DNA of 22,827 nucleotides from a virus. The stretch covers positions 1 to 22,827 of the IMG/VR virus record IMGVR_UViG_3300006916_000422; one strand, 5' to 3'. A model generated the notes under the pieces. That model searched no databases. It was not told the DNA's origin and saw only the letters and a program-made list of their open reading frames with translations. Below are positions 4,566-21,647 of this stretch, piece after piece. The first letter of the stretch is position 1. Each line of letters begins with the position of its first letter. A program made the position numbers and the translations under genes.

Positions 4566-6104
4566 TTATACTTCTAAGACAGCTTCTAAGTCAAGCCAGT
4601 TTTTACCCATCTTTAATTCAATGCCTATTGGCATGTCATACTCGTTACCATAACGACGAAGTGTCTCCTGTGGTAGGGACAGCATCGCTTCAGCCATAAT
4701 ATCAATGCACTGCTGTTCTTCAGAAGGGTAAACATCTATTACTATAGAGTCGTGAACTGTGTTGCAAATGAGAGATTTCATACCTGCATTTTTCATATCG
4801 TGATACAACTTAACCAAGGCTATAGGCAATAGGTCAGCCGTAGCAAATCCCTGCACAGGATAATTACATATAGCAGTGCGGTTAGTAGCAGTACCCCAAT
4901 CTGTCCACTTGGAATCTGGGAAGGCATACACCCTGCCCGATGGTAGGGTTATTTCTTTCTTGGTTACAGCATCCTTCTGTAAGTCCTTGTGCCATTCTTT
5001 AACACCCGCATACTTCTCCTTGAATGCTCTGTAGTATCTCTGTTGGCTATCCGTCCCGCTAACTCCACCGTATAAAGGCTTGAAAGTATGAGCTTTTGCC
5101 TCTTGTCGGGTGCAGCCAATGATGCTAGCAGTGTAGTTATGAACGTCTGTTCCTGCCTCTACATCAAGTCGAATGTTATCATCTTTGGCTAGATACCCCG
5201 CAACTCTGAACTCCAGTTGTGCATAGTCCCCCTCTAGGATTGACCCTCCCTCGAACCTACTCTCTATCGCCTTACGAATGGCAAACGTCGAACCCCGTGG
5301 CATGTTCTGGAAGTTAGGATTACGACTAGACAGCCTACCAGTAGCTGTGATGCATTGCATATACTCTGTATGTACAAAGCCCTTACTGTCGACATTGTTG
5401 AACATACCCTCTACAAACGAACGCAGATATGTTCGCAGGGCAGAGTATCGTATGTAACTCTGTGAAAACTCTTGAGCTTCTCCTCGTAGTGTTAGGGACA
5501 CGTCCTCTAGTGTAGTCTTGTCTGTCTTGAAACCCCCTGATGCTGTATCGAATGCGTCCCGCGGCAGAACTTTGAACCCTGCCACCTCTTTAAGCTTCTT
5601 GTATCGGACACCCTTGCCTTCACAAAGCTTGCAGATACGAACAGCCTTCCCCAGACTACCATCCTTCTTGAGCGGAGAATATCGTCCTGTACCCCTACAG
5701 GCAGGACACTGTGAACCCTCCGTTTTATAGACCACATCTGTGTGTCGTATGACATGATGCTTAAACTCTGTGCGCGTCATGCGCTTACGTAGTTTTGGTT
5801 TCTTAGTAGCCCCGCGAAACTCGTGACCAAGATTGAAGAGGATAGCCCACTGCTTCTTGTCCTTTACCTTGCAGGAGTATAACAGCATAGACCTATCATC
5901 GGGACTATCCAAGTTGACAGGAGTATCACCCATAGCATTCCGTGCCAGTTCGTTAAGCCTACGTTCAAGGACGAACATCTCCTGCTCGTACTCCTCTTTA
6001 ATCTGTAGTAGGGTGTCTGTGTTTATCTTAATACCGTTCTGCTCTATGTGAGCCAGAACATCCGTCATCTCAAACGACAAGCGTAGTGTGGGTAACAGGT
6101 TCAT
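4566..6104 (-). CDS. Family A DNA polymerase (polymerase subunit) with DnaJ-type zinc finger insert
   Basis: This is the replicative polymerase, without its own exonuclease domain. Start ATG 6104 has GAGGAG 7 bases upstream, giving 512 residues. The N-terminus (MNLLPTLRLSFEMTDVLAHIEQNGIKI) is the usual thumb entry of PolA. Residues 133-140 (CPACRGTG) and 158-165 (CKLCEGKG) are two CxxCxGxG units as in the DnaJ central domain, placed before the palm. Motif A is GDYAQLEFRVAG (D293). Motif B is RQEAKAHTFKPLYGG, with F341 at the E. coli 762 position and Y345. Motif C is NTVHDSIVIDV (D452). A DnaJ-like insert in PolA is, to my memory, the described signature of SAR116 phage HMO-2011. The preceding gene supplies the proofreading domain and overlaps by 35 bases. 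The stop TAA overlaps an ATG at 4566. Confidence 0.95.
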   Translation of the reverse strand: MNLLPTLRLSFEMTDVLAHIEQNGIKINTDTLLQIKEEYEQEMFVLERRLNELARNAMGDTPVNLDSPDDRSMLLYSCKVKDKKQWAILFNLGHEFRGATKKPKLRKRMTRTEFKHHVIRHTDVVYKTEGSQCPACRGTGRYSPLKKDGSLGKAVRICKLCEGKGVRYKKLKEVAGFKVLPRDAFDTASGGFKTDKTTLEDVSLTLRGEAQEFSQSYIRYSALRTYLRSFVEGMFNNVDSKGFVHTEYMQCITATGRLSSRNPNFQNMPRGSTFAIRKAIESRFEGGSILEGDYAQLEFRVAGYLAKDDNIRLDVEAGTDVHNYTASIIGCTRQEAKAHTFKPLYGGVSGTDSQQRYYRAFKEKYAGVKEWHKDLQKDAVTKKEITLPSGRVYAFPDSKWTDWGTATNRTAICNYPVQGFATADLLPIALVKLYHDMKNAGMKSLICNTVHDSIVIDVYPSEEQQCIDIMAEAMLSLPQETLRRYGNEYDMPIGIELKMGKNWLDLEAVLEV

Positions 6105-6651
6105 TATATATCTCCTCAAACGATGAGCCAAAGGCTTTGAGTTGTTCTAGGGCTACTTGCTCTGTAGCCAGTACGTCGGCTATACCGTACTCTACTATCG
6201 TGTCCCACGGTATATCATAGAAAGTCTTGCCCTCCTTGAAGTAGGGAGTAATGAGGTCTTTCTCCTTCTGCACTCCACCATACTTCTCTGCAACAGAAGC
6301 AAGCGACAAAGCCCAACGTCTTGCCTTCGATAGAATATATTCTGAAACCATCGTATCATAAACTTTCCCTTCATACTTAAAATTAGATTCGCGTATCCAC
6401 GACAGGTCAAACTTGATGTTGTGTCCTATCACAATGTCGGCACGGTCTAGCTCTGATTGAAACCTGTCGAACGCATCGGGTGTTGGTTCTTCTGTACTGT
6501 GGTAGTAACAGTCGTAGGTTACGTCTTCCTCGTCCAACCACTTGTATCCTATTGCCACGAGCATATTGCCAAAGTAGGGCAGGGGAGTAGTAGAACCGTT
6601 AGACTTCTCCTTGTGGGTAGTCTCTACATCAAAAGTGAGGATGTTAGTCAT
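6070..6651 (-). CDS. DEDDy 3'-5' exonuclease (proofreading domain of PolA as a separate gene)
   Basis: A 193-residue DnaQ-fold exonuclease. The metal ligands are visible: D8 and E10 in LTFDVETT, D82 in GHNIKFDLSW, and Y155/D159 in EYGIADVLATEQV (Yx3D, so the DEDDy subtype). It equals the N-terminal exonuclease domain of T7-like family A polymerases, but the frame stops at TGA (6072-6070), 35 bases after the polymerase start in the next frame. The last residues (NEPVTHTTLVV) are encoded by the overlap. The start ATG 6651 follows a GGGGGGGAG run and overlaps the upstream membrane protein gene by 8 bases. It most likely works in trans with the polymerase just downstream; a frameshifted fusion protein is the alternative. 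Confidence 0.93.
   Translation of the reverse strand: MTNILTFDVETTHKEKSNGSTTPLPYFGNMLVAIGYKWLDEEDVTYDCYYHSTEEPTPDAFDRFQSELDRADIVIGHNIKFDLSWIRESNFKYEGKVYDTMVSEYILSKARRWALSLASVAEKYGGVQKEKDLITPYFKEGKTFYDIPWDTIVEYGIADVLATEQVALEQLKAFGSSFEEIYNEPVTHTTLVV
6112..6117 (-). promoter_or_regulatory. Shine-Dalgarno GAGGAG for the polymerase, inside the exonuclease gene
   Basis: GAGGAG on the minus strand lies 7 bases before ATG 6104 and inside the 3' end of the exonuclease gene. It supports independent translation of the polymerase rather than expression only by frameshifting. Confidence 0.75.
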
Positions 6652-14055: not shown

Positions 14056-14080
14056 ATAAACCTTACTATTTCCTCCCCAG

Positions 14081-14110
14081 AAACCCTCTAGCATTGTCTA
14101 GGGGGTTTTT
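14081..14110 (+). terminator. Intrinsic terminator
   Basis: An 11-base stem, AAACCCTCTAG with CTAGGGGGTTT (one G-U pair), loop CATTGT, and a run of five T at the end. It lies 25 bases after the last early gene. Confidence 0.88.
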
Positions 14111-14297
14111 GTTTGGGTAGATGCCAGAATAACCATCAAAGGCTTGTATAGGCTTGGTTATCTGGGTTGTTGCTATCGGGTTTATTGCTACGCTTCTTTA
14201 CCTTGATGCATCCCCTAAAGGGTTAACCATACAGATTATATATGGATGACAAATGACAAAACGCGTACGCGCGCGGGTGTGGGCGCGATATATTATC

Positions 14298-14340
14298 GGG
14301 GAAAGTATCGGGGAAGTTTCGCGGGGTCAACTTGGCGGGG
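14298..14340 (+). other. Potential G-quadruplex motif
   Basis: Four GGGG runs at 14298-14301, 14310-14313, 14323-14326 and 14337-14340 with loops of 8, 9 and 10 bases. The repeating unit reads CGGGG at steps of 12, 13 and 14 bases. The loops are longer than the classic 7, so stability is uncertain. Confidence 0.5.
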
Positions 14341-14647
14341 CGGTTGGTGTTTCATTGAAGACCCGCTATCGACAAATAAAAATAAATATACTTGCTTGCG
14401 GGCGCACGCATGGGACACCCCCCTCCCCCCGGTATTTGCTAGCAATCCCGACATATTTTTTGTATTTTGAGGGTTTCCTGTATGGTATTCCCGACGAACA
14501 TGTAAGGGGAGACGCTCCGAGAACCCGCTGCGGGGGGTATGGGGTTTCCCCCGGCAGGTGTACTGCCATGATAGGGTCAAAAACACGTCCTGTCAACTAA
14601 AAAATGACCCCTCCTGTATTTTTTTTTTACTATTTCAGAATAACCTG

Positions 14648-14676
14648 TTGACATAACCCCCTTCTAACCCCATAAT
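14648..14676 (+). promoter_or_regulatory. Strong sigma70-like promoter for the virion operon
   Basis: TTGACA (14648-14653), exactly 17 bases, then CATAAT (14671-14676, 5 of 6). Transcription would begin near 14683, leaving a leader of about 100 bases before the small terminase gene. Confidence 0.75.
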
Positions 14677-14784
14677 GTAGACTGCTGGGGCTTGCAAAAC
14701 AGCGAACGACCCCACACATAGCGATAATTTCCTTACTTTATAGGTCTTCGGTACGCTTCCCAGCACCAAATTACGGAAAATAGT

Positions 14785-15183
14785 ATGAATTTGATACAAC
14801 AAGCTCCCAAAAAGCAGTTGTCCGACAAACAGGAGTCGTTCCTGACTGCTCTGTTTGAAAACAACGGCAATTTTAACAAGGCAGCAGAGGTTGCAGGCTA
14901 CTCCACAGGCTCTGTATCGTGGCTACGCGACAAACTAGCCGAAGAAATAGTCGAGCGAACCAAGTCTCTCCTCTCAGGACACAGCCTACGGGCTGCAAAC
15001 AAGATGGTAGAACTGGTAGACACCCCTGTAATCGAACGGGGAGACGACCTACGGCTACGTGCGGCAGAGGCGATACTCAATAGGGTAGGTCTTGGCAAAC
15101 AAGAGACAATGAACCACAACGTTCAGGCAATCCATGGCGTAGTCCTGTTGCCACCAAAGAAAGAGGTAGTAATCGATGGGTGA
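14785..15183 (+). CDS. Terminase small subunit
   Basis: The small terminase recognises phage DNA for packaging and recruits the large subunit. The 132-residue protein has an N-terminal helix-turn-helix-like part (LSDKQESFLTALFENNGNFNKAAEVAGYSTGSVSWLRDKL, residues about 12-51) as in many small terminases, a central helical region and the common phrase LRLRAAEAILNRVGLGKQE (about 92-110). Position directly before the large terminase cluster and after the virion promoter supports this. ATG 14785 has a weak GGA. It overlaps the next gene by 8 bases. The packaging site it binds may be in the preceding intergenic region. Confidence 0.82.
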   Translation: MNLIQQAPKKQLSDKQESFLTALFENNGNFNKAAEVAGYSTGSVSWLRDKLAEEIVERTKSLLSGHSLRAANKMVELVDTPVIERGDDLRLRAAEAILNRVGLGKQETMNHNVQAIHGVVLLPPKKEVVIDG

Positions 15184-15846: not shown

Positions 15847-17535
15847 ATGCCTGAAGAAAAGAAGCCACGGGGCAGACCCAAGAAAGACCCTGAAGCTCCT
15901 AAGGCAGTATACAACCTGTCTAGGAAGGAACGGGCTAGACGCGCTCTACAGGCTCGTGTTCGTAAGGCAGAGAGTTCTAAGAAGAAACTACAGAAGAAGT
16001 CAAAGCAGAAGGCTGAGTACGCACGAGTCCTAAAGAAGAGTGCAAAGAAAGTAGAGTCAGCCCTAAACCAGAAGACTACTCGTGTCGTAGATATGGATGA
16101 CGTATCCAACTTACCCGCCACCGTTCGAGAGATAATAGATGACACACCAGTTATCTTCAAGCCTAATGACGGTCCTCAGGAAGAGTTTCTATCTGCTAGT
16201 GAACAGGATGTCCTCTATGGTGGCGCGGCAGGTGGTGGCAAGAGTTTCGCACTTCTAGCTGACCCTCTCAGGTACTGCCACAATTCCAACCATCGTGGTC
16301 TTCTCCTTCGTCGTACTCTAGACGAACTAACAGAACTGATAGATAAGTCTAAGCAGTTGTACACCAAGGCGTTCCCCGGAGCGACCTTCCGGGAGTCAAA
16401 GTCAACGTGGGTCTTCCCCTCTGGGGCAACCATGTGGTTCACCTACCTCGACAGAGATAAGGACGTAACACGTTTCCAAGGACAGGCTTTCAACTGGATA
16501 GGCATAGACGAGATAACCCAATACCCTACCAGCTACGTCTGGGACTATCTCAGGTCACGTCTTCGTAGTACAGACCCAGAGCTACAGAGAAACCTCTGTA
16601 TGCGTTGCACAGCAAACCCCGGCGGTGTTGGTGGTTGGTGGGTCAAGAAGATGTATATAGATATAGCGGAACACAACAAACCGTTCCCCGCTGCAGATTT
16701 AGAAACAGGCAAACCCTTCGTATGGCCTAAGGGGCATGAGAGAGAAGGGCAAGCCCTGTTCTACCGTAAATTCGTACCTGCTCGTCTCACAGATAACCCT
16801 TATCTAATGGCAGATGGACAGTACGAGGCGATGCTCCGTTCCCTACCCGACGTTGAGCGTCGTCGATTATTAGAAGGAGATTGGGATGTTGCAGAGGGGG
16901 CTGCTTTTCCAGAGTTTTCACGAACTCACCACGTTGTCGAACCTTTCGATGTACCTACCAATTGGCCGCGCATTCGGGCGGCAGACTATGGGTACGCTTC
17001 CCCGTCCTGTATTCTATGGGGTGCTATTGATTGGGATAATAATATTTGGGTTTATCGTGAACTGTATATAAAACACTTGACAGCAGAACAGCTAGCCGAT
17101 AGAATACTAGAAATGGAAGAGTTAGACCCTCTCCCGCACTATACAGTGTTAGATGCATCCTGTTGGAATAAAACAGGCTTCGGACCTTCGATAGCAGAAA
17201 CCATGATGCGCTCTGGTGTTAGATGGACACCATCAGACAGAAACAGACTCCAAGGAAAAATGGAATTACATAGAAGGTTAGCGGACGACCCGTATACCAA
17301 AGAACCACGTTTACGTGTCTTCTCAACTTGTAAACACACTGTCGCACAACTCTCAGGTATTCCGCTGTCCAAAACCAATAGTGAAGACGTTGATACAAAA
17401 GCTGAAGACCACGCATATGATGCACTCCGTTATATGGTTATGACACGCACAAGTGGTTATACATCCATACACAAAACTTTGCAAGGTATAAAAGACCAAG
17501 CATACCAACCCTTTGATAATACATTTGGATATTAA
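15847..17535 (+). CDS. Terminase large subunit
   Basis: This is the packaging motor and DNA-cutting nuclease. Of 562 residues, the first 75 are very basic with an AT-hook-like PRGRPKKDP and a lysine/arginine coiled segment, longer than in most relatives. The ATPase has Walker A YGGAAGGGKSFAL (K132), Walker B FNWIGIDEIT (D221, E222) and the CTANPGG coupling motif near 254-260. The RNase H-like nuclease shows RAADYGY (D380), TVLDASCW (D436) and EDHAYDALRYM (D521 and D525). ATG 15847 follows a duplicated junction sequence and has only AGAG upstream. The next gene starts 3 bases after the TAA stop. Assignment is firm. Confidence 0.96.
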   Translation: MPEEKKPRGRPKKDPEAPKAVYNLSRKERARRALQARVRKAESSKKKLQKKSKQKAEYARVLKKSAKKVESALNQKTTRVVDMDDVSNLPATVREIIDDTPVIFKPNDGPQEEFLSASEQDVLYGGAAGGGKSFALLADPLRYCHNSNHRGLLLRRTLDELTELIDKSKQLYTKAFPGATFRESKSTWVFPSGATMWFTYLDRDKDVTRFQGQAFNWIGIDEITQYPTSYVWDYLRSRLRSTDPELQRNLCMRCTANPGGVGGWWVKKMYIDIAEHNKPFPAADLETGKPFVWPKGHEREGQALFYRKFVPARLTDNPYLMADGQYEAMLRSLPDVERRRLLEGDWDVAEGAAFPEFSRTHHVVEPFDVPTNWPRIRAADYGYASPSCILWGAIDWDNNIWVYRELYIKHLTAEQLADRILEMEELDPLPHYTVLDASCWNKTGFGPSIAETMMRSGVRWTPSDRNRLQGKMELHRRLADDPYTKEPRLRVFSTCKHTVAQLSGIPLSKTNSEDVDTKAEDHAYDALRYMVMTRTSGYTSIHKTLQGIKDQAYQPFDNTFGY

Positions 17536-17537
17536 AT

Positions 17538-19286
17538 ATGGCAGGTGGCGGTTCTAAGCCGATAGAAATTAAAAGTAAGTTTGACCCTCGCGTGACAACT
17601 TTGCGAGAGGTTGTTGACTTATACGCGAAGGACGCTCGTGCAGCAGGTCGTAAGATTGAAGATTTTGAAAAGACTTTTAATCTTGCTGGATTAAAGGATA
17701 TGCTAGATAGACCAGCTATTGATATGTTCGAGGGTAGCTGGGATGGTGACTTAAATCCACTAGAAGCCGCCTTACAGGGCAAAGCGGAGTCTACACATCG
17801 TTCGGTTATATCTGCAGTAAGTAATGTGCAGAGAAATGTTATAAGAGAAGCAACCAGATTAAAAACTGGTTCTGATTTGATACAGATAACCGATACTGTA
17901 TATATACCTCCAAAGTCTAAAGCCTATACTAAGAGTTTTGGTTATAATCCGTACAGAATAGGATTTTTAACAGAGGCTCTTGTAAAACATGTAAAAGATA
18001 ATCCTGCTGATAAACCGATTGCTAACGCTATTATGTTTCAACTTCAGACAGGACTACGCCCCTCTGCCGTAGGTGGTCTTCCTACTGCATCCTTCAAAAC
18101 GTCGGAACGTCCGGGAGGTTCTCCGGGGATATTTATACCGAAGGATATGAAGGGTGTTAAAACAGATAATAATATAAATGTACCGCTATCAAGACGTTCT
18201 ATAGCTATACTACAAGACCAAACAATGTACAACGAAGCAGAGTTCGGAGGTTCCGAAGGATTTTTTGTAAGACGAATAGGAAATAAAGTAGAGTCTATTA
18301 CGGATACTGATATAAATAGAGTGCTTAAAAAATTAAATTCTAGTTTTGGAATTAAAAAAGACCTTAAAACAGTAGACACTAAAGATGTACCATACCTAAC
18401 TTCGTACGACCTTCGACGTTTAAATGCAACGGCCTTTGACCAACTAGGTGTTGATGTAAACAGAGCAGGCGCATTAGTAGGTCGCCCTATACAAGCAAAT
18501 ACAGAACAATCTAGATATATTGGGGCAGCTCCCGGTGTTTACGGAGACTCTGCAACAGAAGATGTAAATAGAGTATCCAACTTCTTTCACCAACAATACG
18601 CAGAAACACTTTCGGGTGCTAGCGAAGCAGGGCAAGAAGGTAAGTCTCTAAGTCTCAATACAATGTTATTTGATGGTAAAACACCAGAGTTTACTGACAT
18701 AGAAACAGAAGCACCCGCATCAATAAAGATAAAGAAGTTTGACGTTGGTACAAATATACAAGTAGAAGAAAAAGGCCCTGCTAAACAGGCTGTTCCCTCA
18801 CCACAAGTAGCTGATGACCTAATGCCTGCGCCTAACCCTGAGGCGGCTGAAAGCTTGAGAGCTAAGGGATTTGACGGAAAGAAGATGGCTGATGCAATCT
18901 TAAACTTCGTCAATAAGGATACAACCAAGGCAGTTACAGGAGTTATTGCGGGGGCTGGTTCTACTTTAGCGGCTATGGTTCCCGGACCTGTGGAGGCACT
19001 GGTTACAGGAGTCTTCGACCAGAAGAGTTTAGAAGAGGCAGGAGCTAAGGGTAAAAAGCTAGTACAGGACGTTACTGGTCAAGAGGAGGGCGTACTTCCT
19101 GCGCTTGGTGAAGTAGCAGGGGTAACTGGTGAAATGGTTACAGGTGCAGTTGCTGACCCCGAAGCCCCTCTTGCAACTTCAAAATTTTTAGCTAGTCCTA
19201 TGGCGACTATAGCTTCAGGATTTATTAACAGGAACGAGGAAGCCACTCCTGTTGATATGAATACAGGTGGCTTCCTATCTAGATAA
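17538..19286 (+). CDS. Tyrosine-recombinase-like domain fused to a virion-type C-terminal tail
   Basis: A 582-residue protein between large terminase and portal. Residues about 135-345 follow the catalytic layout of tyrosine recombinases: R174 in LQTGLRPSAVGGL, a beta-hairpin lysine such as K205 or K208 before NNINVPLSRRS, SYDLRRLNATAFDQLG where R293 is the second arginine but Y290 replaces the usual histidine, AGALVGRP where R316 replaces the next His/Trp, and Y327 in QSRYIGAAPG as nucleophile. The N-terminal 120 residues could be the core-binding domain. From about 380 the chain is unlike an integrase: acidic/proline linker, then Gly/Ala-rich hydrophobic AVTGVIAGAGSTLAAMVPG (465-483) and more small-residue sequence. 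No Shine-Dalgarno is seen before ATG 17538. Function could be resolution or integration of DNA, or a structural role. Confidence 0.75.
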   Translation: MAGGGSKPIEIKSKFDPRVTTLREVVDLYAKDARAAGRKIEDFEKTFNLAGLKDMLDRPAIDMFEGSWDGDLNPLEAALQGKAESTHRSVISAVSNVQRNVIREATRLKTGSDLIQITDTVYIPPKSKAYTKSFGYNPYRIGFLTEALVKHVKDNPADKPIANAIMFQLQTGLRPSAVGGLPTASFKTSERPGGSPGIFIPKDMKGVKTDNNINVPLSRRSIAILQDQTMYNEAEFGGSEGFFVRRIGNKVESITDTDINRVLKKLNSSFGIKKDLKTVDTKDVPYLTSYDLRRLNATAFDQLGVDVNRAGALVGRPIQANTEQSRYIGAAPGVYGDSATEDVNRVSNFFHQQYAETLSGASEAGQEGKSLSLNTMLFDGKTPEFTDIETEAPASIKIKKFDVGTNIQVEEKGPAKQAVPSPQVADDLMPAPNPEAAESLRAKGFDGKKMADAILNFVNKDTTKAVTGVIAGAGSTLAAMVPGPVEALVTGVFDQKSLEEAGAKGKKLVQDVTGQEEGVLPALGEVAGVTGEMVTGAVADPEAPLATSKFLASPMATIASGFINRNEEATPVDMNTGGFLSR

Positions 19287-19297
19287 GGAGAAAAAAC

Positions 19298-19516
19298 ATG
19301 CCCGGAAATAACTATAACTACGGTGCTGCTTACATTATGAACTCAGACAAGACATCTGTTGACACAGACGAGGGTGCAAGCTCCCTAACACGCGAAGGCT
19401 TGGAATTTGATACTCGTGTACAACAAGGCCCTATAACTGAAGACATGCCAAAGAAGCAGACTAAGCCAACAGTTGAAGCATCGTTATTCGCTATGGCAGA
19501 CGAACGCGACTATTAG
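19298..19516 (+). CDS. Small acidic hypothetical protein
   Basis: A 72-residue protein with a good binding site (GGAG 7 bases before ATG 19298). It is acidic and probably mostly disordered: NYNYGAAYIMNSDKTSVDTD at the start, then GASSLTREGLEFDTRVQQG, and a basic patch PKKQTKP before the end ASLFAMADERDY. It lies between the recombinase-like gene and the portal, 11 bases before the latter, so it is very likely co-expressed with virion genes. It may be a minor virion or scaffold-type protein, but nothing in the sequence fixes this. Confidence 0.65.
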   Translation: MPGNNYNYGAAYIMNSDKTSVDTDEGASSLTREGLEFDTRVQQGPITEDMPKKQTKPTVEASLFAMADERDY

Positions 19517-19526
19517 AAAGTAAGAT

Positions 19527-21647
19527 ATGTCAGAAGACAATTTCCTACAGCCTGCAGACGACACAACTATACCCGTTCAATCCCCAGATGAAATGCTTCC
19601 GGGGTTGGCAGGGTACGTTCGACGCAAGTTTGAAGAGGCTGAGAACGGACGTTTCTCCTACGAGCAACGTTGGTTACAGGCTTTTAAAAACTTTAGGGGC
19701 ATCTACGATTCGACTACGCAGTATAGAGATTCCGAAAGGTCACAGGTATTCGTAAGAGTAACCAAGACCAAGGTTCTTGCCGCGTATGGTCAGATTATAG
19801 ATATCCTGTTTGCTAATAAAAAGTTTCCACTCGTTGTAGAACCAACTCCTATGCCAGAAGGTATAGCAGAGTTTGCTCACATGGAAACTCCTCTAGACCA
19901 AATGTCAGAAGACCCCTACGGGTTCTCTGGGGATGGCAGGGAGCTTACTCCCGGAGCCTTAGGTGCTGAACCCTCTAAGGATTTTCTTGGTGGTCTAAAA
20001 CAGTCTATGGGGCAGTTGCCACTAGCTGAAGGACCTAGCAAGATAGGCGAACCACAGATTAGCCCAGCACAGAAGACAGCCCTGAAGATGGAGAAGTGTA
20101 TTCACGACCAACTTCTCGACACGAATGCGGTCAATGTTTTCAGGAGTGCAATCTTTGAGTCGGCTCTTCTAGGTACAGGAATTGTAAAAGGACCTTTCAA
20201 CTTCAACAAACGTGTTCACAAGTGGGACAGAGACGAGAATGGTGAACGGGAATACCAGCCATATGAAAAGTCTGTACCACGTATAGAAATGGTATCTGCT
20301 TGGGACTTTCATCCAGACCCTGCGGCTACAAACATCGATGACTGTGAATACGTAATAGAGAGACACCGATACAATCGTCAACAACTTCGCTCTCTAATCA
20401 AGCGTCCCTACTTCATAGCGGAGAACATAGAAGAGTGCCTAGCAAAAGGCCCCAACTATGAGGACAAGTATTATGAAGATACTATCCGCGAGGATGAGAC
20501 TGAGCCTTACGTATCTGAGAATAGATATGAGGTTCTAGAGTATTGGGGTGTCCTAGATTCTAAACTAGCTAGAGAAGCGGGCTTCGACGAAGCTACTGAC
20601 ATGTCTGAGTTTGACGAACTACAGGTAAACGTCTGGGTTTGTGGGGGTATGATACTTCGCTGTGTCCTAAATCCATTCACACCTGCTCGTATACCATATC
20701 AGGTATTTCCATACGAATTAAATCCGTATCAACTCTGGGGTACTGGCGTGGCAGAGAATATGGAATACTCACAGAAGCTGATGAATGGTCACTATCGAAT
20801 GGCTATTGATAATCTAGCCTTGGCAGGTAATCTAGTCTTTGACGTTGATGAGGCTAGCCTTGTCCCCGGTCAGAACATGGACATCTTCCCCGGAAAGATT
20901 TTCCGTAGACAGTCGGGGGTTACTGGAACAGCTATCAACGGACTAAAGTTTCCAAACACCGCAGGTGAAAATCTGCAGATGTATCAGATAGCAAGGCAAC
21001 TTGCTGACGAGGACACAGGAATACCGTCGATTATGCACGGTCAGACAGGCGTTACAGGCACAGGACGTACTGCGGCAGGTCTATCCATGCTAATGGGGTC
21101 TGCTGGGCTTTCTATGAAGACTGTGGTTAAGAATATAGACGACATGTTGTTAAAACCACTAGGGGAGGCATATTTTCAATGGAACATGCAATTCAACGAC
21201 GATGCTCCCGATATTGTGGGGGACTTGGAAATAAAGCCGAGGGGTGTTGCTGCTGTAATGCAGAAAGAAGTTCGGAGTCAGAGGCTTACAGCCCTCCTCC
21301 AGACTGTCGCAAACCCGATGCTTGCGCCCTTTATCAAGATACCTAATCTTATGCGGGAGTTAGCTATCTCTCAGGACATAGACCCTGATAGTTTAGTTAA
21401 TGATACTAATGAAGCACAATTATATGCAAAAATGTTACAAGGAATGATGGCAAATGCTCAACAAGCAGCAAGCGCAGAAGCTAGCCCCGCTGGTGCAGGG
21501 CAAGGAATGGGAAATGATGGAGGAGTACCTGAAGGACCTCAGGGAACTGACGATTCAGGGCGTGGTAACGGCACAATCGGAGTCGGAACTGCTCCGAGCG
21601 CAGGGGAAGCTGGCTTTACTGGAAATCCTCCTCAAGCTGAAGAGTAG
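19527..21647 (+). CDS. Portal protein
   Basis: A dodecameric ring at the capsid vertex through which DNA enters and leaves. The 706-residue length and the sequence fit podovirus portals: an early helix RRKFEEAENGRFSYEQRWLQAFKNF (about 32-56), KVLAAYGQIIDILF, a wing region with PRIEMVSAWDFHPDPAATN, YEVLEYWGVLD, then AENMEYSQKLMNGHYRMAIDNLALAG (about 411-436) and TGRTAAGLSMLMGSAGLSMKTVVKNIDDMLLKPL. The last 65 residues are low-complexity (Ala, Gly, Pro) and are overprinted by another gene in a different frame from 21454. ATG 19527 has AAGTAAG upstream. Assigned by overall pattern and place after the terminase. Confidence 0.88.
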   Translation: MSEDNFLQPADDTTIPVQSPDEMLPGLAGYVRRKFEEAENGRFSYEQRWLQAFKNFRGIYDSTTQYRDSERSQVFVRVTKTKVLAAYGQIIDILFANKKFPLVVEPTPMPEGIAEFAHMETPLDQMSEDPYGFSGDGRELTPGALGAEPSKDFLGGLKQSMGQLPLAEGPSKIGEPQISPAQKTALKMEKCIHDQLLDTNAVNVFRSAIFESALLGTGIVKGPFNFNKRVHKWDRDENGEREYQPYEKSVPRIEMVSAWDFHPDPAATNIDDCEYVIERHRYNRQQLRSLIKRPYFIAENIEECLAKGPNYEDKYYEDTIREDETEPYVSENRYEVLEYWGVLDSKLAREAGFDEATDMSEFDELQVNVWVCGGMILRCVLNPFTPARIPYQVFPYELNPYQLWGTGVAENMEYSQKLMNGHYRMAIDNLALAGNLVFDVDEASLVPGQNMDIFPGKIFRRQSGVTGTAINGLKFPNTAGENLQMYQIARQLADEDTGIPSIMHGQTGVTGTGRTAAGLSMLMGSAGLSMKTVVKNIDDMLLKPLGEAYFQWNMQFNDDAPDIVGDLEIKPRGVAAVMQKEVRSQRLTALLQTVANPMLAPFIKIPNLMRELAISQDIDPDSLVNDTNEAQLYAKMLQGMMANAQQAASAEASPAGAGQGMGNDGGVPEGPQGTDDSGRGNGTIGVGTAPSAGEAGFTGNPPQAEE

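Follow-up and report, generated by a model that had tools for sequence, protein, structure and literature searches.

A hypervariable tyrosine recombinase gene with an exchangeable tail lies between the terminase and portal genes of HMO-2011-type marine phages and may encode a virion-borne enzyme

Uncultured HMO-2011-type marine phages include a large clade in which a gene for a predicted tyrosine recombinase with a long C-terminal tail is fixed in the slot between the genes for the large terminase subunit (TerL) and the portal protein. The strict conservation of its predicted active site amid divergence suggests a new role for tyrosine recombinases, possibly inside the virus particle. We describe this gene, hereafter the slot gene, in one stretch of viral DNA (the window, which means the whole stretch analysed, 22,827 nt) and in related loci, starting from an earlier note on the window's sequence.

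Judging from its sequence, the window belongs to an HMO-2011-type phage. Its TerL is homologous to those of HMO-2011-type isolates (47–58% identity), its portal is of the SU10 type, and its DNA polymerase (DNAP) ORF (4566–6131) contains CPACRGTG and CKLCEGKG, which are partial DnaJ-type CxxCxGxG zinc motifs. Such motifs are a trait of the HMO-2011-group DNA polymerase (PMC6918029). The features of the window that concern us are:

14785..15183, + strand: probable small terminase subunit (by position and a weak PF03592 match, E 0.038, below the cut-off)
15847..17535, + strand: large terminase subunit, TerL (PF03237)
17538..19286, + strand: TerL-portal slot gene (protein P0001, 582 aa, ATG start), predicted tyrosine recombinase plus a tail of ~230 aa
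17538..17927, + strand: N-terminal domain, residues 1–130; matches the lambda Int/Xer core-binding domain in alignment; arm-binding domain absent
17928..18587, + strand: catalytic domain, residues 131–350; PF00589 at residues 146–313; pLDDT >90 for most blocks
18057..18059, + strand: R174, first catalytic Arg (76/76 homologues)
18159..18161, + strand: K208, beta-hairpin Lys (68/70 ungapped rows)
18405..18407, + strand: Y290, HxxR histidine position, in YDLRR (variable, S/Y/K/A/T in most; His in 4/76)
18414..18416, + strand: R293, second catalytic Arg (76/76)
18483..18485, + strand: R316, His/Trp position (Arg 39/76, His 36/76; H or R 75/76)
18516..18518, + strand: Y327, predicted nucleophile (76/76)
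18588..18782, + strand: acidic linker, residues 351–415
18783..19283, + strand: exchangeable Gly/Ala-rich tail, residues 416–582
18918–19268, + strand: block replaced in locus L005, about residues 461–577 (P0001 compared with L005)
19266..19283, + strand: C-terminal GGFLSR, one form of the terminal F-[LIVM] peptide
19298..19516, + strand: 72-aa ORF ending ...ADERDY, between slot gene and portal
19527..21647, + strand: portal protein, SU10-like (PF23899, E 1e-27)

The earlier note had read a tyrosine recombinase layout of R174, YDLRR (R293), R316 and Y327 with Tyr at position 290, and every one of these residue positions is exact; the beta-hairpin lysine K208, absent from its list, completes the catalytic set. 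It had also placed the gene 3 bases past the TerL stop and before the portal. The gene order stands; the TerL stop ends at 17535, leaving a gap of 2 nt, and the 72-aa ORF precedes the portal. An ORF of 55–110 aa lies before the portal in 82 of 90 loci. The C-terminus of the 72-aa ORF (SLFAMADERDY) and the end of the portal (GFTGNPPQAEE, 21620–21647) each loosely resemble the terminal peptide of the slot protein. Upstream of the small terminase gene, the window contains ~670 bp without clear genes (14056–14784), which open with a terminator-like hairpin (~14078–14111) and include a tandem TATCGGGGAA repeat at 14294–14315; this region is possibly a late promoter, pac site or origin. No tRNA or Rfam match was found in the whole window.

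Profile and structure comparisons agree on the fold of the slot protein. It matches PF00589 with 32.1 bits (curated cut-off 27.1) and the PHROG_1 integrase family with E 5e-10. AlphaFold, given a 76-row alignment of cores from highly diverged homologues, modelled residues 1–362 with a mean pLDDT of 92.1 and a pTM of 0.87, and the PDB matches listed by Foldseek were all tyrosine recombinases or a telomere resolvase (probability 0.98–1.00): Xer, lambda Int, Tn1549 Int, XerH and Cre, with a weaker match to the telomere resolvase TelA (E 8.5e-3). The structure prediction proposed in the earlier note as a check thus returned a recombinase fold. By VIA-align, the model aligns over 246–252 residues with Z 15.8 to an archaeal Xer and 14.6 to lambda Int, and its residues 16–349 superpose on lambda Int 71–337, which comprise the core-binding and catalytic domains. 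Direct tblastn of the slot protein against 50,697 phage records gave no match, nor did a second divergent core, and a profile built from eight close homologues found no match among PDB chains. The slot recombinase often escapes standard annotation, its sequence having diverged too far to be detected.

With Y290, the slot protein lacks the HxxR histidine that serves as a criterion of the tyrosine recombinase superfamily. Active archaeal integrase subfamilies also lack this residue, namely the pNOB8-type (R..YxxR..Y) and SSV1-type (R..KxxR..Y) integrases (PMC8371274), so its loss does not expel the slot protein from the superfamily. From its catalytic residues and fold, we classify the slot protein as a tyrosine recombinase superfamily member with one canonical residue replaced. 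Values of dN/dS are mostly 0.04–0.2 across the N-terminal and catalytic domains, below that of the tail, and 0.04–0.16 for the N-terminal domain in comparisons with enough changes. Altogether, the slot protein is very probably an active site-specific DNA strand-transfer enzyme.

To survey the locus, we collected 217 loci with TerL from three TerL-based scans of IMG/VR, and used a core profile that was seeded by the window's slot protein and then iterated. Of 160 slot ORFs, 138 contain the recombinase core by this profile, as does no other ORF in an 8,964-ORF set. Where TerL is at least 70% identical to that of the window, the recombinase-plus-tail gene is present in 111 of the 111 distinct determinable loci (duplicates removed); the search for this fusion beside the terminase of HMO-2011-type genomes, as the earlier note had suggested, was therefore positive throughout the clade. 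In the sister clade (TerL 58–70%), a recombinase fills the slot in 6 loci and a different ORF in 16, one locus has only small ORFs there and 4 have an empty slot; below 58% the slot is mostly empty. Two loci with TerL 98% identical differ in having (L061) or lacking (L100) the recombinase. Between the TerL stop and the slot start codon, the distance is −4 to +6 nt at every locus. Recombinase slot genes encode 522–974 aa, and the long fused tail described in the note proved general: it is in frame, with at least 198 residues beyond the core in 100/100 complete distinct homologues.

Several slot proteins differ in architecture. Those of 818–974 aa in the sister clade (L060 3479–6403, L062 4709–7417, L061 3361–6279, L105 2378–4834) consist of an N-terminal canonical Xer-like integrase with HxxR intact, a middle domain and, at the C-terminus, an exchangeable tail; between L060 and L062, identity is ~96% across 889 aa, and the two differ thereafter. 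The middle domain also occurs in non-recombinase slot proteins. The latter are 330–548 aa long (L058, L063, L100, L101, L106, L108, L116 and L118) and have an N-terminal domain in common, and a Pfam search of these proteins gave no match. TerL and the portal are directly adjacent in HMO-2011 and CRP-9, and unrelated genes occupy the slot in HTVC103P, HTVC033P, a Rhizobium phage and ctYwJ313. The gene filling the ctYwJ313 slot is HNH-endonuclease-like (L019 9505–10182).

By these sequence comparisons, the slot gene changes much more rapidly than the genes on either side. Median pairwise identity of the core is 16% among 70 representatives. In the locus pairs L026/L215 and L020/L127, TerL is 100% and the portal ~99% identical, and the slot proteins have little or no detectable similarity; DNA alignments break where TerL ends and resume near the 3' end of the slot gene. 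Two distinct N-terminal extensions of ~140 aa, one in L023, L029 and L040 and the other in L022 and L043, are found on otherwise different slot recombinases. These extensions are a third exchangeable module of the slot recombinases.

The tail is exchanged separately from the core. At the DNA level, the P0001 gene and its L005 counterpart are 98.7% identical up to codon 460, then diverge, and share the final few codons. The tail of P0001 is found on another core in L020, and L103, which has no recombinase, shares a tail with L105, which has one (58% over 128 aa). An F-[LIVM] motif falls in the C-terminal 16 residues of 41/69 distinct recombinase slot proteins and 5/9 non-recombinase ones, compared with 9/190 control ORFs (p 1e-20); these counts concern a short motif defined post hoc from slot tails and missing from ~40% of them. 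Because the motif was defined after the slot tails had been viewed, only its recurrence in a family of ~180-aa late proteins serves as an out-of-sample test. There, the motif ends the protein, whose neighbours are 600–1660 aa long, in 11 of 13 genomes, that is, the first three near-complete ones and 8/10 further homologues, and slot-less isolates have an altered motif (GLMSR, GLMSK or GLMAR) in this protein. In the cultured roseophage CRP-9, the protein terminates in TGLMSRV.

The ~180-aa gene just precedes two giant genes (sizes ~180, 400–1160 and 1100–1660 aa), and from this order and these sizes we infer a podovirus-like ejection-protein module; the ~180-aa protein itself matched no PHROG family. 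Late proteins of ~170–220 aa that are annotated as hypothetical (L226 17609–18148, L230, L236–L246) are conserved among HMO-2011-type phages and those of Rhizobium, Vibrio and Aeromonas, and near their ends is a conserved hydrophobic C-terminal peptide (GFL, SFM, GLM). In BLAST searches of the tails against non-slot ORFs, there was no detectable similarity, and only the terminal peptide is common to the two. Nor does the tail look clearly like a membrane segment: peak hydropathy in P0001 is 1.39 over 19 residues, and 7/98 family tails exceed 1.6.

The earlier note held that phage integrases normally lie outside the packaging-head module, and this is true of cultured HMO-2011-type phages, in which a tyrosine integrase, when present, is found upstream of the replication module (PMC9038755, PMC6918029). 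HMO-2011 has a 302-aa integrase elsewhere and an empty TerL-portal slot. Across HMO-2011, ctYwJ313 and G032, which lack the slot recombinase, the conventional integrases lying elsewhere measure 302–389 aa, and several slot-less isolates have neither enzyme. No second PF00589 match was found in 12 slot-bearing contigs (32–57 kb). In these few genomes, it is suggestive that slot recombinase and conventional integrase are mutually exclusive. Among 25 of 51 PHROG families listed for the early ORFs of three near-complete genomes, we recognised no repressor or excisionase, and HTH_11 proteins are present in the early regions examined. A prophage scan of one genome per species (~85,000 species) found no clade member, for which hosts may be unsampled, and one distant match in a planctomycete MAG.

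We also looked for a DNA target. The gaps around the slot gene are only a few nt, with no room for an attP between genes. tRNA T-arm motifs are not enriched (14.8 vs 13.1 per Mb, slot compared with flanking DNA), nor are inverted repeats of lox/dif geometry (5–9 nt spacer) in slot genes relative to TerL, portal and shuffled sequences. In the 2.5 kb upstream of TerL, the best hairpins were terminator-like only.

As a whole, the best explanation we can offer is an active recombinase that is made late, packaged, injected and acts on DNA, an account we put forward tentatively, at rather less than even likelihood. Its position and coupling imply that the slot recombinase would be translated late, with TerL and the portal. 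The module and motif evidence points to a tail and C-terminal GFLSR-type peptide that would load the recombinase into the prohead, like a cargo-loading peptide, and the enzyme would then enter the next cell along with the phage DNA. Its fold and conserved residues predict site-specific cutting and rejoining through a 3'-phosphotyrosine bond, with Y327 acting together with R174, K208, R293 and H/R316. The enzyme might circularise, resolve or integrate the phage DNA that has just entered, or act on a replicon of the host or of a competitor, and rapid core exchange would alter the target site.

Carriage of the recombinase in the virion, one of the readings offered in the earlier note, seems to us only a little short of an even call; it is favoured by the late-operon position, by the tail on non-recombinase slot proteins and by the peptide common to the ~180-aa protein. 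With slightly more reserve than for the account as a whole, we propose that the slot is a cargo bay, in which a hypervariable recombinase would be loaded via an exchangeable tail and C-terminal peptide and injected as infection begins; payload and tail would evolve through the exchange of modules. Pfam and PHROG gave no match to a MuF or other head-targeting domain in the proteins scanned. To our knowledge, no virion-borne tyrosine recombinase has been described, and a search of the open-access literature found no relevant paper on a virion-packaged or packaging-module tyrosine recombinase. Precedents for injected cargo are MuF proteins, encoded in the same neighbourhood, and polyvalent phage proteins (PMC5576092, PMC5512222), and the N4 virion RNA polymerase is described as virion-packaged (PMC5512222).

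The same gene could instead be a relocated integrase: the sole lysogeny recombinase, moved into the packaging operon and not packaged, with a diversity that reflects different attB sites. A mere change of place by an ordinary integrase would equally account for the hypervariability and the lack of any other integrase, and it is in keeping with the conventional integrases elsewhere in slot-less phages and the lack of a second PF00589 match in the 12 slot-bearing contigs; the group's conventional integrases are themselves strongly divergent (35–63%; PMC6918029). However, the gene sits in a late operon with no attP room, T-arm motifs are not enriched, no repressor or excisionase was recognised among the 25 of 51 listed PHROG families in the early regions of the three near-complete genomes, and the clade is absent from the one-per-species genome set. 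The slot recombinase also has no arm-binding domain, and a tail common to non-recombinase proteins is unexpected for an integrase. On balance, we consider relocation unlikely. The abrupt limits of exchange, one where TerL ends and one close to the slot gene 3' end, the extreme turnover and the HNH endonuclease in the ctYwJ313 slot could also mark a selfish or conflict module directed against competing phages or host replicons. Such a module would be swapped at one fixed position between genes, much as a free-standing homing endonuclease or a polymorphic effector is. Occupancy of 111/111 loci in the clade exceeds that of a sporadic selfish gene, however, and PADLOC gave no match, which leaves this reading improbable.

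Loss of the HxxR histidine is also seen in type IB topoisomerases and telomere resolvases. Together with the Foldseek match to TelA and the position directly after TerL in every clade member, it would suit an enzyme that works with the terminase in the producing cell, resolving concatemers or dimers, changing topology or forming hairpins, as Cre, Xer or a telomere resolvase does. Sequence-specific cut-and-rejoin chemistry is common to these families (PMC12270096). Such an enzyme is not essential, however, since the sister-clade slot may be empty or hold a non-recombinase, even at 98% TerL identity (L061/L100). Core swaps at identical TerL and portal would break the match between enzyme and site, unless the site lies in the cassette, and no inverted-repeat site was found in the searched slot genes or the 2.5 kb upstream of TerL. 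The packaging-linked resolvase of the earlier note is weakened by close relatives that lack the recombinase, and we rate it as slightly less likely than relocation. The note's further suggestion, a structural protein derived from a recombinase fold, is contradicted. The phi3T repressor SroF (9rgl) is among the structural matches and the HxxR histidine is lost, as non-catalytic reuse in a structural or regulatory role would allow, but R, R and Y are invariant and K is nearly so amid general divergence. Because R-K-R-Y is the sole near-invariant part of a core that otherwise diverges, with dN/dS of ~0.05–0.2, a purely structural role is strongly disfavoured and very improbable.

The clade matters because HMO-2011-type phages rank with the most widespread viruses of the sea, and one large group of them carries this predicted tyrosine recombinase without exception. 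If the recombinase is injected, as we prefer to read it, it would represent a new phage route to intervene on DNA during the opening minutes of infection, and it would supply an existing system in which to look for cargo-loading peptides. HMO-2011-type subgroups without a recognised integrase have been described as probably obligately lytic (PMC9038755); if the slot recombinase is an integrase, the strictly lytic view of such phages must change. Either way, a fixed catalytic site with target-binding parts that shift between otherwise identical phages would amount to a natural recombinase library.

Among known systems, Xer, XerA, XerH and Cre, of the simple core-binding plus catalytic domain type, share their fold, domain order and R-K-R-Y site with the slot recombinase, which differs from them in the replaced HxxR histidine, the frequent Arg at the His/Trp position, the long C-terminal tail, the fixed place in the TerL-portal slot and the extreme sequence turnover. 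The telomere resolvases (protelomerases) TelA and ResT have an altered HxxR position and a related catalytic domain, a remote structural match to the slot recombinase. They act on a palindromic telomere site; for lox/dif geometry, the slot gene and the 2.5 kb that precede TerL gave no enriched inverted repeats beyond terminator-like hairpins. The pNOB8-type and SSV1-type integrases belong to the same class of HxxR substitution, with YxxR as in P0001, but they come from archaeal plasmids and viruses, have no such tail and lie outside a packaging operon (PMC8371274). The integrases of HMO-2011 and CRP-1/2/3 are tyrosine recombinases from the same phage type (PMC6918029, PMC9038755); unlike the slot recombinase, these conventional enzymes (302 aa in HMO-2011) have no tail, lie upstream of the replication module and occur where the slot gene is absent. 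MuF-fused toxins and polyvalent proteins resemble it as variable enzymatic cargo of the terminase-portal neighbourhood that is thought to be virion-delivered (PMC5576092, PMC5512222). MuF genes, however, follow the portal and use the MuF domain, of which none was found in the proteins scanned here; searching the text of the survey of polyvalent proteins for 'tyrosine recombinase' or 'integrase' gave no result. The N4 virion RNA polymerase is a different enzyme, and its packaging is demonstrated, where that of the slot recombinase is only proposed; like the slot recombinase as envisaged here, it works on nucleic acid and is produced late, for use when the next infection begins.
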